A stretch of DNA of 64,000 nt from positions 1 through 64,000 of the forward strand of contig NZ_QKKX01000038.1 of NCBI RefSeq assembly GCF_003434305.1. Reading direction: 5' to 3'. Every line of letters starts with the position of its first letter. Position 1 is the stretch's first letter. Shown in pieces: positions 47,848 to 56,242 of the stretch. The notes under the pieces are model-generated. The model worked only from the letters and a program-made list of their open reading frames with translations. It did not search any database and was not told the origin of the DNA. Both the position numbers and the translations under genes were made by a program. This stretch comes from Micromonospora sp. MW-13. Its GTDB lineage: Bacteria > Actinomycetota > Actinomycetes > Mycobacteriales > Micromonosporaceae.

Positions 47848-48807
47848 ATGACCGACGTGCCCACACCAGGACGGGAGCCGTACGTACTGGGCCTGGTGGC
47901 TCATCCGCGCAACGACGTCAGCGAGTCGGTCGCCACGGTGACGCGGGCCGCCGCGCGTCACGGCTCACCCGTCGTGGCCCGCCCGAGCGACGCCGCCCGG
48001 CTGGGCGACGGCGTGCTGGCCATGGACGACCACGAGTTCGTCGAACGCGTCGACGCCGTGATCAGCCTCGGCGGGGACGGCACCATGCTCGGCGCCATGC
48101 GCCTGATGGCGGGGCGGCAGACCCCCGTGCTCGGCGTCAACCACGGCAACCTCGGGTTCCTCATCGAGGTCTCCCCGGCGCAACTGCCCGCGGCACTCGA
48201 CGAGATGGTCAACGGCCGGTTCAGCCTCGAACCACACTGCTGCCTGGAGGTCGAGGGCGACGCGGGACCGACGACCGCGTTCAACGACATCGTGCTCGCC
48301 GGCGAACACCCGGGGACGACGGCGAACCTGGACTTGGAGATCAACGACGTCCGCCACGGCTACTACCGCTGCGACGCGGTGGTCGCGTGCACACCCACCG
48401 GTTCGACCGCCTACAACTACGCCGCCGGGGGCCCGATCATCTCCCCGTCGACCCCCGCGATCGGGCTGACCCCGGTCGCGCCCATGTCGGGCATCAGCCG
48501 CACCATCGTCCTCGGCGGCGAGGACGTCGTCACGCTCCGCAACCCCTCCGAGCGGGCGGCCCTGCGGATGTCCCTCGACGGCGCGGCCGTCCGCCGGGTC
48601 GAGCCCCGGGGCCACGTGACCCTGCGGCTGCGGCCGGACGTCGTCAACGTGGTCCGGTTCGACCCCGCCGCCCTCGGCCAGCGCAACCGCGTCAAGCTCA
48701 GCCTCCTCGACCTTCCACTGCGCCCGGACCAACTGCTCGAACTCGTGCCCGAGCACCTGCGCGAGCGGGCCAGGCAGCTACGGCGCGAGGGAACTCTCCT
48801 GAGCTAA
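47848..48807 (+). CDS. nadK: NAD kinase
   Basis: 319 residues that phosphorylate NAD to NADP with ATP or polyphosphate. The GGDGT motif is at 75-79, NHGNLGFLIEVSP near 105, the second conserved motif CTPTGSTAYNYAAGGPI near 180, and PISGISRTIVL-like block near 215. Length is typical. ATG follows GGGACGGGAGAAGC. It is convergent with murD2, with 17 bases between the stops. A genome usually holds another NAD kinase; whether this is the only one cannot be seen here. Confidence 0.92.
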   Translation: MTDVPTPGREPYVLGLVAHPRNDVSESVATVTRAAARHGSPVVARPSDAARLGDGVLAMDDHEFVERVDAVISLGGDGTMLGAMRLMAGRQTPVLGVNHGNLGFLIEVSPAQLPAALDEMVNGRFSLEPHCCLEVEGDAGPTTAFNDIVLAGEHPGTTANLDLEINDVRHGYYRCDAVVACTPTGSTAYNYAAGGPIISPSTPAIGLTPVAPMSGISRTIVLGGEDVVTLRNPSERAALRMSLDGAAVRRVEPRGHVTLRLRPDVVNVVRFDPAALGQRNRVKLSLLDLPLRPDQLLELVPEHLRERARQLRREGTLLS

Positions 48808-48824: not shown

Positions 48825-50174
48825 CTACCCGGCGGCGGTGTCCCGGACCGCCTCGGCGAAGACCTCGGAGCGGTGCTCGAAGTTGCGGAACCGCCCGTAG
48901 CTGGGCGCGGCCGGGGAGAGCAGCACCACCCCGTCGGCCGGGGTCAGCTCCCGGGCCCGGCGCACGGCGGCGACCAGGTCCTCGACCACCTCGGTACGCA
49001 CCTGCGGCAGCCCGGCGAGGGCGCCCACGATCCGCTCCCCGCTGTCCGGGATGCCGAGCACGGTCAGCTCCCGCTCGGCCAGGTGATCGCGCAGCGGCGT
49101 GTAGTCCAGCCCCCGGTCGGTGCCCCCGACGATCACCGTCAACGGCCGCCCCTCGTACGCGTCGATCGCGTGCATCGCCGCGTACGGGCTGGTGGCCAGG
49201 GTGTCGTCGACGAAGGTCAACCCGGACGGGTCGGCGATCTCGGTGAGCCGGTGGGCCAGCCCCTGGAACCCGGCGACCGCCACCGCGAGGGTGTCCTTGC
49301 GGGCCACCACGTCCACGCCGAGGGCGTCGAGCACGGCCAGGGCGACGCACAGGTTGCCCTCGTTGTGCCGGCCCACCAGGGGCAGCACGGCGCGCGGGAA
49401 CAGCGGCCGGTCGGCGAGGTGGAACCAGGGCGCGCCGTCCGGGCCGGGGGCCACCTGGGTGGTGTCCGGGGAGCCCGCCCGCACGGCCGGCCGGTCGCCC
49501 AGCTCGGCGAGGAGCCGCGGGTCGGCGCCGTTGACCACCACGGTCTCCGGGCCGTGCGCCAGCAGGTTGAGCTTGTCCCGGTAGTACTCCCGCTCGCCGC
49601 CGTGCGCGTCCAGGTGCTCGGGGAAGAGCGCGGTGACCACCGCCACCCGGGGCGAGTCGGTCAGGTCGGTGCACTGGTAGCTGGACAGCTCCAGCACGTA
49701 CCGGTCGGCCTCGGGCAGGTCGAGCAGCGGCACCCCGATGTTGCCGCCGAAGACGTTCGGCCGGTCGACCGCGGTGAGCAGGTGGCTGATCAGGCTGGAC
49801 GTGGTGGACTTGCCCTTGCTGCCGGTCACCCCGACGGTGCGCCGGGCGTGGTCGGCCATCCACAGTGCGCTGCCCTGGGTGACGGTGGCCCCCCGGCGGC
49901 GCAGCTCGACCATCCACGGGTGGGTGTTCGGCACCCCGGGCGAGCGGACCACCACGTCGGCGGCGGCCAGCCGGGCGAAGCCCTCCTCGCCGGTGACCAG
50001 CGGGGCCGCCTCGGCCAGCGGGCCGTCCCACGGCAGGGCGAGGAAGTTGGCGCTGTCGTCCACGGCGACCAGGCCGGCCGGGCCGTGCGCGGCGATCGCG
50101 GTCACCGCCGCCCGGCCCTCCCGACCGGTCCCCCAGACGGCGACGGTACGTCCGCGCAGGTCAGACAGTCGCAC
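48825..50174 (-). CDS. murD2: UDP-N-acetylmuramoyl-L-alanine--L-glutamate ligase, MurD2
   Basis: 449-residue Mur ligase. An N-terminal Rossmann part (VAVWGTGREGRAAV) is followed by ATP-binding GVTGSKGKSTT at 115-125, NVFGGNIGVPLL, LELSSYQCTDL, FPEHLDAHGGEREYYRDKLNL and the C-terminal FVDDTLATSP. Beside murL it fits MurD2, known from Xanthomonas to add L-glutamate instead of D-glutamate to UDP-MurNAc-L-Ala. The GTG start follows GAGGAG. The SYQ and HLDAHG blocks are as in classical MurD, so substrate choice is inferred from the murL neighbour. Confidence 0.87.
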   Translation of the reverse strand: MRLSDLRGRTVAVWGTGREGRAAVTAIAAHGPAGLVAVDDSANFLALPWDGPLAEAAPLVTGEEGFARLAAADVVVRSPGVPNTHPWMVELRRRGATVTQGSALWMADHARRTVGVTGSKGKSTTSSLISHLLTAVDRPNVFGGNIGVPLLDLPEADRYVLELSSYQCTDLTDSPRVAVVTALFPEHLDAHGGEREYYRDKLNLLAHGPETVVVNGADPRLLAELGDRPAVRAGSPDTTQVAPGPDGAPWFHLADRPLFPRAVLPLVGRHNEGNLCVALAVLDALGVDVVARKDTLAVAVAGFQGLAHRLTEIADPSGLTFVDDTLATSPYAAMHAIDAYEGRPLTVIVGGTDRGLDYTPLRDHLAERELTVLGIPDSGERIVGALAGLPQVRTEVVEDLVAAVRRARELTPADGVVLLSPAAPSYGRFRNFEHRSEVFAEAVRDTAAG

Positions 50175-50250
50175 AGGTGTTCTCCTCGGGCTGGGGGTCG
50201 GTCGGCGGCCCGGTCCGGCGCAGCCGGACACGGCCGGACGAACCAGGGCC

Positions 50251-50256
50251 TAGTAT
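50251..50256 (+). promoter_or_regulatory. -10 box of a probably leaderless murL promoter
   Basis: TAGTAT lies six bases before the GTG at 50262, with no ribosome binding site between, the standard spacing for a leaderless mRNA in actinomycetes. Confidence 0.5.
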
Positions 50257-50261
50257 GGCGT

Positions 50262-51611
50262 GTGCCCAACGAGCAGCTCCGGCGGATGGACGCCTTCACC
50301 TTCCCGTCCTACTCGATCGACCTCGCCACCGGCGAGGCGTTGTTCGACTACGCTCTGACCGGTCCGCGCGGCGAGCAGCGGTTCACCGAAGTGATCACCC
50401 TGCCGCTGCCGGCCGAACCGCCCTCGGACGAGACGGTGGCCACCCTGGGGCGCGTCCTGGAGCTGCTGCACGTCGTCGCCGGGGTCAGCTACTACAAGGC
50501 CGCCGCGCCGCCCCGGCTGGTGCTGCCGGCGCCGCTCGGCCCGGCCGCCGCCGAGCTGGTCACCGCCGTCTACACCAAGGGCCTCGCCGAGTACGCGTAC
50601 CGCAACCAGCTCCCGCACGTGCTGGAGCTGGCCCCGGAGGTCCCGCCGGGCTCGGTGTCACCCGCCCGCGAGTACGACAACTCCGACCTGCGCCCGCTGT
50701 CAGCCGTCGGCGGCGGCAAGGACTCCATCGTCAGCCTGGAGGCGCTGCGCCGGGCCGGCCTCGACCCGGTGCCGTTCTCGGTGAACCCGAACCACGTCAT
50801 CGTCTCGGTCAACGAGGCGTCCGGGCTGGCCCCCCTGGCCGCCCGGCGGCGGCTCGACCCGGTGCTGTTCGACCTCAACGCGGCCGGCGCACGCAACGGC
50901 CACATCCCGGTCACCGCGATCAACTCGCTGATCGCGGTCGCCACGGCGGTGCTCAACGGCCTCGGCCCGGTGGTGATGTCCAACGAGCGGTCCGCGTCCG
51001 ACCCGAACCTGGTCTGGAACGGGCACGAGATCAACCACCAGTGGTCCAAGGGGGTCGAGGCGGAGGCGCTGCTGCGGGCGGCGCTGGCCGAGCACGCGGG
51101 GCTCACCGAGCCGTACTTCTCGCTGCTGCGGTCACTGTCCGAGCTGCACATCGCCCGGCTGTTCGCCGCGATCGACCGGTACGACGACGTGGTGACGAGC
51201 TGCAACGCCGCGTTCAAGCTGCGCGACGCGAGCGAGCGGTGGTGCCGCGACTGCCCGAAGTGCCGGTTCGTCTTCCTGGCCATGGCGCCGTTCATGCCGC
51301 GCGAGCGGATCATCCACATCTTCGGCGGGGACCTGCTGGCCGACGAGGCCCAGATCCCCGGGTACCGGGAGCTGCTGGGCGTGGACGGGCACAAGCCGTT
51401 CGAGTGCGTCGGCGAGGTCGAGGAGTCGGTGGTGGCGCTCAGCCTGCTGGCCGAGCAGGACCAGTGGCGCGCCGCCCCGGTGGTCCGCGCCCTGGTCGAC
51501 GCGGTCCCGGAGACCGCCTGGTCGGCGGCGGCCAACTCGGACGTCTTCACTCCCGGCGGCCCCAACCACATCCCCCCGCCCTACGCCAAGTCCCTAACCG
51601 CGCTAACCTGA
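50262..51611 (+). CDS. murL: UDP-MurNAc-L-Ala-L-Glu epimerase, MurL
   Basis: 449 residues. The central PP-loop-like SAVGGGKDSIVSLEALRRAG (residues 147-166) would bind ATP. It is followed by FSVNPNHVIVSVNEASG, NGHIPVTAINSLIAV, SNERSASDPNLVWNG, and a Cys cluster WCRDCPKCRFVFLAM near 327-341. This is the pattern of MurL, which epimerises the L-Glu residue of the MurD2 product to D-Glu and so replaces the need for glutamate racemase. The gene is divergent from murD2, 87 bases apart. An ATG at 50286 is an alternative start, but the -10 box favours GTG 50262. Confidence 0.88.
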   Translation: MPNEQLRRMDAFTFPSYSIDLATGEALFDYALTGPRGEQRFTEVITLPLPAEPPSDETVATLGRVLELLHVVAGVSYYKAAAPPRLVLPAPLGPAAAELVTAVYTKGLAEYAYRNQLPHVLELAPEVPPGSVSPAREYDNSDLRPLSAVGGGKDSIVSLEALRRAGLDPVPFSVNPNHVIVSVNEASGLAPLAARRRLDPVLFDLNAAGARNGHIPVTAINSLIAVATAVLNGLGPVVMSNERSASDPNLVWNGHEINHQWSKGVEAEALLRAALAEHAGLTEPYFSLLRSLSELHIARLFAAIDRYDDVVTSCNAAFKLRDASERWCRDCPKCRFVFLAMAPFMPRERIIHIFGGDLLADEAQIPGYRELLGVDGHKPFECVGEVEESVVALSLLAEQDQWRAAPVVRALVDAVPETAWSAAANSDVFTPGGPNHIPPPYAKSLTALT

Positions 51612-51646: not shown

Positions 51647-53506
51647 TCAGGGGGTGCGGACGGCGTCCAGGGCGAGCAGGGCGACGTGCAGCGAGAGGCA
51701 TGCCTCCACGGAGTCGAGGTCGACGTCGAGGACGCGGGCGATGCGGGCCAGCCGCTCGTAGAAGGCGGGCCGGGACAGGTGCGCCGCGGCGGCCCCGGCC
51801 GACTTGTTCCGGCCCTGCTCCAGGTACGCCCGCAGGGTGCCGAGCAACTGCTCCCGGGGGTGCCGGGCGTCGTACGCCAGCAGGGCGCCCAGCTCACGCT
51901 CCACGAACGTCTGCAACCGCGGCTCGTCCCGCAGCAGGTGCAGCAGACCGGCCAGCCCGACGTGCGGCAGCCGGTAGATCGGCAGGTCCCGGCGGTCCCG
52001 GCGGGCCGCGTCGGCGACCTGCCGCGCCTCGACCAGCGAGCGACGGGCCTCCCGCAGGCTGCCCACCCCGGACCCGGCGGCGACGATCACCGCAGCCGGG
52101 CCGGCCGCGGTCCGGGCCGCCGGAGTCGGGCCGGGCCACGCCGGGGCGGGGGGACCTCCCGACCGGCCGGACCCGCCACCGGCGGCGCTGCGGGCCGGCG
52201 CGGAGTCGGGCGGCCGGGGCGGGCCGGCGTCCACCCGGTTGCGCCGCAGCGCGGCGGCGAACGCGTTCAGCGCCCGCTCCTCGGCCGCCGGGTCGGGCAG
52301 GGCCAGCAGCACGCCGACGGCCTGGTCGTCGACGGCGCTGCTCAGCCCGGTCAGCTTCGCCTCGCGCAGGGCCTGCCCGACCGCCTCGGACAGGTCCCGC
52401 AGCCGGGCCGGGCCGGCCTCCGGGTCGACCGGGCCGGGCTCGCCCGGCGCGCCCCCTTCGGCGGCCGGCTCGTCGGCCCGGTACCGCACCACCACGCCGA
52501 CCAGGTGCCGGCGTTCCAGCGCCACCCCGAGCGCCCGGGCCCGCAGGGCCACCTCGTCGACCGGGCGGGAGTGGTCCAGCAGGGCGGTGAGCAGGGTCCG
52601 GTGGATCTGCCGCTCCAGCCCCTCGGCGTCGCGCCGGATCAGCCGGCCCAGCGCGAGCGCGGAGGCGGCCCGCTCGACGAGGATGGTCAGCCGGGTCGGC
52701 AGCGCGCCCGGCGGCGGGGCGGGGTGCCCCGGGTCCGGGTCCGACACCCCGTCGGGGACCGGCGTGGGGGTGGCCAGCTCGCCGCCGCCGGGCCAGCGCA
52801 GCAGCAGCCGACCCCAGTCCTGCCCCCGGGCCCCGACGGTGGTCACCAGCCAGCCGCTGTCCGGGTCGTACGCGGTGCGCCCGGCCGGGCTGATCCGCCG
52901 CGAGTGCTGCTCCCAGCCGTCCAGCAGCAGCTCGGCGCTCTCCCCCGCCGGGTCGTACGCGAGCACCTGGCGGGACAGGTTCTCCAGCACCACCGGGCAG
53001 CCGGACAGCTCGGCGGCCTGCCGGACCACCTCCGCCGGGCCGGCGCCCTCGACCGACAGCTCGGTGAACCGCTGGTGGATCTCCTCGGTCGCCCGCAGCT
53101 CGGTGAGCTGGGCGTCGACGATCAGCGCGTGCACGGCCTCGGTCACCCGGACGAACGGGGTGGCCCGGCGCAGCTCCACCAGCGGCAGACCGCGCCGCTC
53201 GGCGGCGGCGGCCATCACCCGGGGCACGCCGCTGACGTACCGGCGGCCCAGCTCGACCACCAGACCGGAGACCCCGACGTCGGCCAGCGCGCCGATGAAC
53301 GCGCGCAGGCCGACGTCGTCGGCGGGCAGCCCGATGCCGGTGGTGAGCACCAACTCGCCGCCGCGCAGCAGGGTGGCGATGTCCGGCACCTCGGCCACGT
53401 GCACCCAGCGCACCGGCCGGTCCAGGCCGGCCTCCCCGGCGACCAGGCGGGGCGCGCCATGGCGGACCGGGTCCAGCGCGAGGACCTCACGGACGGTAGG
53501 AAACAC
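51647..53506 (-). CDS. PucR-family transcriptional regulator
   Basis: About 619 residues. The N-terminal PucR domain (FPTVREVLAL, WVHVAEVPDIATLLRGGELVLTTG) would bind an effector. The middle is a degenerate cyclase-like region with a long Pro/Gly-rich insertion near residues 430-470. The C-terminal HTH_30 helix reads LLGTLRAYLEQGRNKSAGAAAAHLSRPAFYERLARI. Relatives control purine, polyamine or amino acid breakdown. The GTG at 53506 lies seven bases after TAGCGT, again suggesting leaderless translation; GTG 53515 is three codons upstream. Confidence 0.87.
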   Translation of the reverse strand: MFPTVREVLALDPVRHGAPRLVAGEAGLDRPVRWVHVAEVPDIATLLRGGELVLTTGIGLPADDVGLRAFIGALADVGVSGLVVELGRRYVSGVPRVMAAAAERRGLPLVELRRATPFVRVTEAVHALIVDAQLTELRATEEIHQRFTELSVEGAGPAEVVRQAAELSGCPVVLENLSRQVLAYDPAGESAELLLDGWEQHSRRISPAGRTAYDPDSGWLVTTVGARGQDWGRLLLRWPGGGELATPTPVPDGVSDPDPGHPAPPPGALPTRLTILVERAASALALGRLIRRDAEGLERQIHRTLLTALLDHSRPVDEVALRARALGVALERRHLVGVVVRYRADEPAAEGGAPGEPGPVDPEAGPARLRDLSEAVGQALREAKLTGLSSAVDDQAVGVLLALPDPAAEERALNAFAAALRRNRVDAGPPRPPDSAPARSAAGGGSGRSGGPPAPAWPGPTPAARTAAGPAAVIVAAGSGVGSLREARRSLVEARQVADAARRDRRDLPIYRLPHVGLAGLLHLLRDEPRLQTFVERELGALLAYDARHPREQLLGTLRAYLEQGRNKSAGAAAAHLSRPAFYERLARIARVLDVDLDSVEACLSLHVALLALDAVRTP

Positions 53507-53557
53507 GGGCGACACGCTACCGTCCGTGACGTCAATTCCGCACCGGCCCGCGCCGGC

Positions 53558-55625: not shown

Positions 55626-55726
55626 ACCCTCGAACCGTCAAGCGAGTAGCCGCCCAGGAGACGATCTTGCACAGCAAAGTGAAGGAAAACCCGACTGTTG
55701 ATCTTTAGAGCCCCAGGTCAGCAAGT
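55626..55726 (+). promoter_or_regulatory. CRISPR leader
   Basis: The 100 bases before the first repeat are clearly AT-richer than the surroundings (for example AAAGTGAAGGAAAAC and TTGATCTTTAGAG) and end CAGGTCAGCAAGT at the repeat. The opposite end of the array carries the degenerate repeats, which places the leader here and transcription rightward. Confidence 0.6.
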
Positions 55727-56242
55727 CTGCTCCCCGCGCACGCGGGGGTGATCCGGTGTGCGCGGAAAAGTGGCTAGAGGAAAGGGGCTGCTCCCCGCGC
55801 ACGCGGGGGTGATCCGGTCGTCCTGGCGTCCCTGGTCGGCGTCTTCGTCTGCTCCCCGCGCACGCGGGGGTGATCCAGACACGCATGTGGACCGACAATG
55901 GCGAGCCGACTGCTCCCCGCGCACGCGGGGGTGATCCCACCGGGCACGCAAGGACACCCGCGTTGTACCGCTGCTCCCCGCGCACGCGGGGGTGATCCGG
56001 CCGGGCATCGGCATGAGGTGCGGTACCGCTGCTGCTCCCCGCGCACGCGGGGGTGATCCCAGCGCGCTGGTGGGTACGCGCAGGGCGCGGGCCTGCTCCC
56101 CGCGCACGCGGGGATGATCCGCACACCCGGGACACCTCACGCAAGGAGTGTCCCTGCTCCCCGCGCACGCGGGGGTGATCCTCAAGGCAGGCATGACGCC
56201 GCCGAGCGATGGCGGCTGCTCCCCGCGTCGGGAAAGAAGAAG
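55727..56242 (+). CRISPR. CRISPR array, type I-E-like repeat, 8 spacers, no cas genes in view
   Basis: Eight 28-base repeats start at 55727, 55788, 55849, 55910, 55971, 56032, 56093 and 56154, each beginning CTGCTCCCCGCGCACGCG and ending GGGGGTGATCC. Seven spacers are 33 bases and the last is 34. The seventh repeat has one change (GGGGATGATCC). A terminal copy at 56216 keeps only the first 12 bases. The CCCCGCG-CAC-CGCGGGG hairpin and the 61-base period are those of actinobacterial type I-E arrays. All eight spacers differ. No cas gene lies on either side, so any interference must come from machinery elsewhere, or the array is idle. Confidence 0.97.

Follow-up and report, generated by a model that had tools for sequence, protein, structure and literature searches.

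The closest described system to the genes considered here is the MurD2/MurL pathway of Xanthomonas oryzae (XOO_1320/XOO_1319; PMC8788868, PMC5808125, both cited throughout from the portions of their text at hand). In this pathway L-glutamate (L-Glu), not D-glutamate (D-Glu), is added to the peptidoglycan precursor and is then epimerised there. The pathway is already known in Micromonospora: in vitro work confirmed the orthologs of a Micromonospora sp. and of Salinispora tropica, the route operates in Micromonospora sp. ATCC 39149, and Micromonospora, Actinoplanes, Verrucosispora and Salinispora are named as carriers (PMC8788868). Here we analyse a divergent murD2–murL pair in a stretch of 64,000 nucleotides (the window) from Micromonospora sp. 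MW-13, whose genome of 7.09 Mb in 152 contigs is rated 100% complete. An earlier note on this DNA had placed a Mur ligase and a protein with a GGGKDS motif and a cysteine cluster back to back. Both genes are found where it put them, with their starts 87 bp apart, and its assignment to MurD2 and MurL holds up.

The pair very probably forms the MurD2–MurL route to D-Glu in peptidoglycan, in which MurD2 would put L-Glu into the cell-wall precursor and MurL would then flip it to D-Glu on the precursor. We reach this reading because the pair shares 93–95% identity with that of strain ATCC 39149, the genome has no murI and a single murD, the ligase carries the Arg and Leu residues described below, and MurL and MurI exclude each other among genomes. 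The gene identities, the L-Glu ligase residues, the absence of murI, the single murD and the conserved order and start are shown by the sequence. Being a typical example of a pathway already described, the pair has low discovery value. The present analysis contributes a structural clue to MurL chemistry and signs of replacement as a unit, and these two parts deserve follow-up. On balance we favour a reading in which MurL, with Cys382 in its active site, represents a so far unrecognised branch of the QueC/QatC PP-loop enzymes devoted to the cell wall, built on a scaffold known from deazaguanine carboxylate adenylation and from phage defence, and in which MurD2–MurL is an exchangeable module that has repeatedly replaced MurI–MurD by transfer within Actinomycetota genera.

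The ligase and the D-glutamate supply of the genome

The murD2 product scores above the cut-off of TIGR01087 (Table 1), which places it in the MurD family, and its closest solved structures are MurD ligases. Its likeliest start is a GTG from which homologs align, with GAGGAG 7 bases upstream. In Xanthomonas MurD2, Glu197 and Arg358 replace Asp182 and Lys348 of Escherichia coli MurD, and reverting both leads to the use of D-Glu; in addition, K319T makes E. coli MurD accept L-Glu, while mutation of the residue at the A414 position leaves stereospecificity unchanged (PMC8788868). The window MurD2 has both switch residues, Glu at the D182 position and Arg at the K348 position. Among distinct MurD2 sequences with a letter at the position, the K348 position is Arg in 114 of 114 and the K319 position is Leu or Ile in 115 of 115. 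All 30 canonical MurD compared from the same bacterial family, the best-scoring murD loci of a search of 150 family genomes, have Asp, Lys and Lys at the D182, K319 and K348 positions. We also considered Phe or Tyr at the L416 position as a diagnostic of MurD2 and rejected it: the window MurD2 has Tyr where the Xanthomonas enzyme has Phe, and Tyr is also found in most canonical MurD of the family (19 of 30).

The earlier note had named three checks on the rest of the genome; all were run, and their outcomes favour its reading. The murI model TIGR00067 has no match at E ≤ 10 in the whole genome. TIGR01087 has six matches, of which only murD2 of the window exceeds the cut-off; the five weaker ones are murC, murF and murE of the division and cell wall (dcw) cluster and two weak matches. 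The dcw cluster (L046) reads FtsI-type penicillin-binding protein, murE, murF, mraY, ftsW, murG, murC, ftsQ, where ftsW and ftsQ are best hits under their curated cut-offs; it contains no murD, and mraY is directly followed by ftsW. A D-amino-acid transaminase was not found either, the two class IV aminotransferases being IlvE (41 bits on TIGR01121, cut-off 277) and a PRK09266-type protein. A hidden murI, D-amino-acid transaminase or second murD is rejected, each having been searched for in the genome without success. The locus resembles that of Xanthomonas in having both enzymes, the Glu and Arg switch residues, no murI and adjacent genes. Compared with the canonical MurI–MurD route, MurD2 is likewise a member of the MurD family; unlike in that route, no free D-Glu would be involved, MurI is absent and MurD2 falls in a separate clade.

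Two observations weigh against the MurD2–MurL reading. First, the genome carries two further proteins of the Asp/Glu-racemase superfamily, one nearest to cysteate and aspartate(-type) racemases but under both cut-offs and the other a member of an unnamed subfamily, and either of these non-MurI proteins may be able to racemise glutamate. Second, Glu at the D182 position is often lost in MurD2 of other families: it is present in 100 of 116 distinct MurD2, and the other 16 have Asp (15) or Cys (1). Because of these 16 sequences the residue at this position alone is no mark of MurD2, and we rejected it as one. The first observation would also suit an ordinary D-Glu-specific MurD that merely lies beside an unrelated PP-loop protein and receives D-Glu from another racemase, as would the match over cut-off to TIGR01087, a model named for D-glutamate ligase. 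We regard this as very improbable. The K319 and K348 positions are MurD2-like and unlike those of all 30 canonical MurD, orthologs of the pair were confirmed in vitro (PMC8788868), and one branch with a Shimodaira–Hasegawa-like approximate likelihood-ratio test (SH-aLRT) support of 99 parts 29 MurD2 from 30 MurD in a tree of 59 sequences, a quick and unrooted tree made with no bootstraps and containing one very long branch (L212). Moreover, two types of murD that differ in score follow MurL and MurI, as described below. The NCBIfam name "D-glutamate ligase" thus falls on MurD2 proteins that, by their residues, should use L-Glu.

Distribution of MurL and MurI

MurL matches occur in 79 of the 150 family genomes, with 57–92% identity outside the window's own genome, and therefore the pair is no chance find. 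Within the genus of the window all 16 sampled genomes carry it, as expected for an essential pair. This count, and the lack of another murD or of murI in the genome, stand against a role of the pair in a side pathway, for example towards a D-Glu-containing natural product, with the cell wall fed by another source of D-Glu. Micromonospora is rich in natural products, and the PucR-type regulator and NAD kinase encoded next to the pair are not cell-wall genes; even so, we give a side pathway hardly any credence.

Across the 150 family genomes, 79 have MurL, 70 have MurI over cut-off, none has both and one has neither. Across 366 genomes of the phylum, the corresponding numbers are 25, 305, 0 and 36. 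With relatedness ignored, 36.9 (family) and 20.8 (phylum) genomes with both would be expected by chance, against zero observed. The single family genome with neither (G063) is best read as incomplete, as its completeness is 77% and its murD is partial (297 bits over positions 96–440). In 23 of the 36 phylum genomes with neither route there is no match at E ≤ 0.001 to MurL or MurI. Sub-cut-off MurI matches are found in five family genomes with MurL (G020, G037, G045, G056, G058) and in three such phylum genomes (G257, G374, G474). As a side observation, incompleteness of the genome or another source of D-Glu may explain G063, the latter three and the 23 phylum genomes, in which neither route is found or MurL is accompanied by a weak racemase match.

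The type of murD follows this division. A murD at E ≤ 1e-40 is found in 148 of the 150 family genomes, with one gene each (in two pieces in G035), and the two genomes without such a match are MurI genomes. When partial or fragmented genes (G035, G037, G057, G059, G063) are left aside, murD scores 339.7–390.0 bits in MurI genomes vs 241.6–303.5 bits in MurL genomes; this pairing of the low-scoring type with MurL is a further point against an ordinary MurD in the window. Both MurL and MurI genomes are present within four sampled genera (g40, g138, g175, g197); in g40, for instance, Longispora albida has MurL and G062 has MurI. In each of the four genera the murD type tracks the switch. In the tree of 59 sequences canonical MurD cluster by family, and MurD2 of different families pair as sisters: G406 (family f31) with G401 (f45) at support 97, and G486 (f42) with G346 (f21) at support 88.

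We read the mixing within genera, the tracking of the switch by murD type and the sister MurD2 of different families as transfer of MurD2–MurL between lineages as a two-gene module, with signs that the two genes displace the canonical route together. An ancestor bearing both routes, followed by differential loss, may instead account for the pattern. That MurI and MurL strictly exclude each other, even where a genus includes genomes of both kinds, provides a natural experiment on the swapping of an essential pathway.

Predicted fold and possible chemistry of MurL

MurL is described as lacking known domains and having an unclear mechanism; it uses one ATP, forms AMP and works in one direction only, and an alpha-carboxyl adenylate has been proposed (PMC5808125, PMC8788868). 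Our scans with NCBIfam and Pfam, and Pfam on 14 MurL members, gave no clue to its fold. The window MurL contains only five cysteines (Cys314, Cys328, Cys331, Cys334 and Cys382), each conserved across all 132 distinct MurL sequences, and in its GGGKDS motif all three Gly, the Asp and the Ser are invariant. The structure model of the protein, with a predicted local distance difference test (pLDDT) score of 91.8, matches the structure of QatC with Z 18.9 over 320 residues at a root-mean-square deviation (rmsd) of 4.0, covering model residues 8–414 and so nearly the whole chain; with Foldseek the E value to QatC is 2.3e-4. QueC follows with Z 13.4 (186 residues, rmsd 3.3) and Cap9 with Z 13.0 (168 residues). 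The next matches are YcfA at Z 9.3 and TtuA and LarE at Z of about 8.5. The predicted model of MurL hence shares its fold with the QueC family.

A profile comparison points the same way. With hhalign, an alignment of 27 MurL against one of 26 QueC gives E 2.2e-5, a probability of 76% and a score of 44.7, compared with a maximum of 20.7 over 15 column shuffles, 17.5 when the alignment is reversed and 15.7 for MurD. The QueC set consists of 26 loci chosen by the GG.DS motif, and C(x)7-10CxxCxxC is present in all 26 as well. The alignment is in register although unguided: GGGKDS falls on SGGxDS, and Cys314, Cys328, Cys331 and Cys334 fall on the four zinc-binding cysteines of QueC, arranged as C(x)8CxxCxxC (PMC13329287, from the part of the paper at hand). 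MurL resembles the QueC family (PF06508; QatC, Cap9) in a predicted PP-loop fold and in variant forms of its loop (GG.DS) and cysteine motif (C(x)nCxxCxxC). It differs in being missed by PF06508, in having C(x)13CxxCxxC in place of C(x)8CxxCxxC, in an extra invariant Cys382 and in its substrate.

From the model and this comparison we infer that MurL may be a PP-loop enzyme of the QueC/QatC type that adenylates its substrate and has a structural zinc site. The alignment of PP-loop and zinc site fits the proposed adenylate mechanism: MurL would adenylate the glutamyl carboxylate without passing the adenylate on, and so would act as a peptide epimerase. The zinc site of QueC would be retained as a structural element, and the new invariant Cys382 would lie in the active site. 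Since the other four invariant cysteines fall on the zinc site of QueC and Cys382 lies beyond the QueC-like part, Cys382 is the best candidate for a residue that takes part in proton transfer.

Several points count against a kinship with QueC. The evidence consists of a single predicted structure together with a profile match whose probability is 76% in a single-pair comparison, and the Foldseek TM-score of the model to QatC is only 0.41. PF06508 matches none of 14 MurL sequences at E ≤ 10, and its search of the own genome gives one weak match, elsewhere than murL. A phmmer search of the PDB finds no solved structure for the MurL family, and PADLOC shows no link between MurL and QueC. As these sequence-only searches found nothing, the link rests on the structure model and the profile–profile comparison. 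Cysteine-pair racemases are common. With all five cysteines invariant, MurL might work without adenylation, by means of a racemase site built on a metal or on cysteines, and share with QueC only a Rossmann-like core, all the more as distant PP-loop folds also reach Z 8–9. We consider this unlikely: orthologs use one ATP and form AMP (PMC8788868, PMC5808125), QatC, QueC and Cap9 stand at Z 13–19 vs at most 9.3 for the next rows, and four MurL cysteines fall on those of QueC in the unguided alignment.

A literature search, in which Feng et al. 2017 and 2019 were covered through the portions of PMC8788868 at hand, returned no paper that connects MurL with QueC, QatC or PP-loops, and the word MurL is absent from the available parts of two 2026 papers on the QueC family. 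If MurL is indeed a QueC/QatC-type adenylating enzyme, its mechanism could be tested with point mutants and by trapping the adenylate, and inhibitors designed on the structure become thinkable against a pathway that has been proposed as a narrow-spectrum target.

Gene order, murL start and surroundings

Comparison of loci was made with the best 80 of 515 confirmed MurL loci, referred to as the named loci. The earlier note had taken the route as known from Xanthomonas and the divergent order of the genes as a departure from it. The match to the pathway stands, with the qualification that it is not confined to Xanthomonas. The order is also real, the Xanthomonas genes being consecutively numbered and those of the window divergent; it is nothing unusual and is the rule in the group, with 74 of the 80 named loci divergent. 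One locus is tandem (Longispora albida), and in five murD2 lies outside the stretch examined, which in one case reaches only 158 bases upstream. The ATCC 39149 pair (L119; MurL 95% and MurD2 93% identical to those of the window) is divergent with the same TAGTAT-GGCGT-GTG start, and PMC8788868 names the genus, so neither pathway nor gene order is new, and we rejected both as candidate novelties. The window MurL is also 97% identical to that of Micromonospora rubida and 84% identical to that of Salinispora vitiensis.

In other Actinomycetota families murL is followed by murD2 on one strand in 18 of 18 loci examined (23 such genomes have MurL), and the divergent order therefore probably arose by a rearrangement within Micromonosporaceae. 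MurL with a tandem murD2 also occurs in Actinomycetota families with small genomes (1.5–5.6 Mb) outside the window's class (L199–L216), which are unnamed in the portions of PMC8788868 at hand.

The leaderless look of the murL start, remarked on in the earlier note, is real as a sequence feature: the region reads TAGTAT-GGCGT-GTG, with 5 bases between the −10-like hexamer and the GTG. A search motif that the murL start fits precedes one of 1998 plus-strand start codons of the window, that of murL, and none of 1825 minus-strand start codons. Among the named loci it is found before murL in 43 of 44 Micromonospora, 3 of 3 Salinispora, 1 of 1 Verrucosispora, 1 of 1 Asanoa and one unplaced member of Micromonosporaceae, 49 in all. 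Going by this motif, murL would be transcribed as a leaderless message. In M. pattaloongensis and Spirilliplanes TAGTAT lies farther upstream of murL, with a purine-rich leader ahead of the start. The murL starts of L062, L083 (Asanoa-like genus g34), L162 and L189 likewise look leadered, with TAGTAT 30–40 bases upstream and a purine-rich stretch before the GTG.

In three Micromonospora genomes (G127, G045, G096) the gap between murD2 and murL measures about 1.7 kb, against 87 bp in the window (L069:13475-15171; L070, L071). In G127 it contains a TnpB-like gene (OrfB_IS605 and Cas12f1-like TNB domains), which ends just upstream of the TAGTAT of murL; the −10-like box is therefore retained, with all upstream sequence replaced.

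Table 1. Positions of the pair, its motifs and its neighbours in the window.
Feature	Position	Strand	Basis or remark
NAD-kinase gene	47848-48807		End adjoins murD2
murD2	48825..50174	-	TIGR01087 283 bits vs cut-off 212; stop at 48825, GTG at 50174
MurD2 Pro424	48903..48905	-	E. coli Ala414 position; alignment
MurD2 Arg354	49113..49115	-	E. coli Lys348 position; alignment; role from PMC8788868 (text in part)
MurD2 Leu326	49197..49199	-	E. coli Lys319 position; alignment
MurD2 Glu186	49617..49619	-	E. coli Asp182 position; alignment; role from PMC8788868 (text in part)
Shine-Dalgarno-like GAGGAG ahead of murD2	50182..50187	-	Sequence
−10-like TAGTAT ahead of murL	50251..50256	+	Sequence; kept in 49/80 named loci
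murL	50262..51611	+	GTG start, 449 aa; 95% identity to ATCC 39149 ortholog
GGGKDS PP-loop, MurL residues 150-155	50709..50726	+	Aligns with QueC SGGxDS
MurL C314, C328, C331, C334, C(x)13CxxCxxC	51201..51263	+	Predicted zinc site; aligns with QueC cysteines
MurL C382 in HKPFECVGE	51405..51407	+	Outside predicted zinc site; candidate catalytic residue
PucR-type regulator gene	51647-53515	-	Comes after murL
Repeats	55713-56184		Eight, 61-base period

Farther downstream of the pair, the eight repeats listed in Table 1 have the common part CTGCTCCCCGCGCACGCGGGGGTGATCC and resemble an array of clustered regularly interspaced short palindromic repeats (CRISPR).

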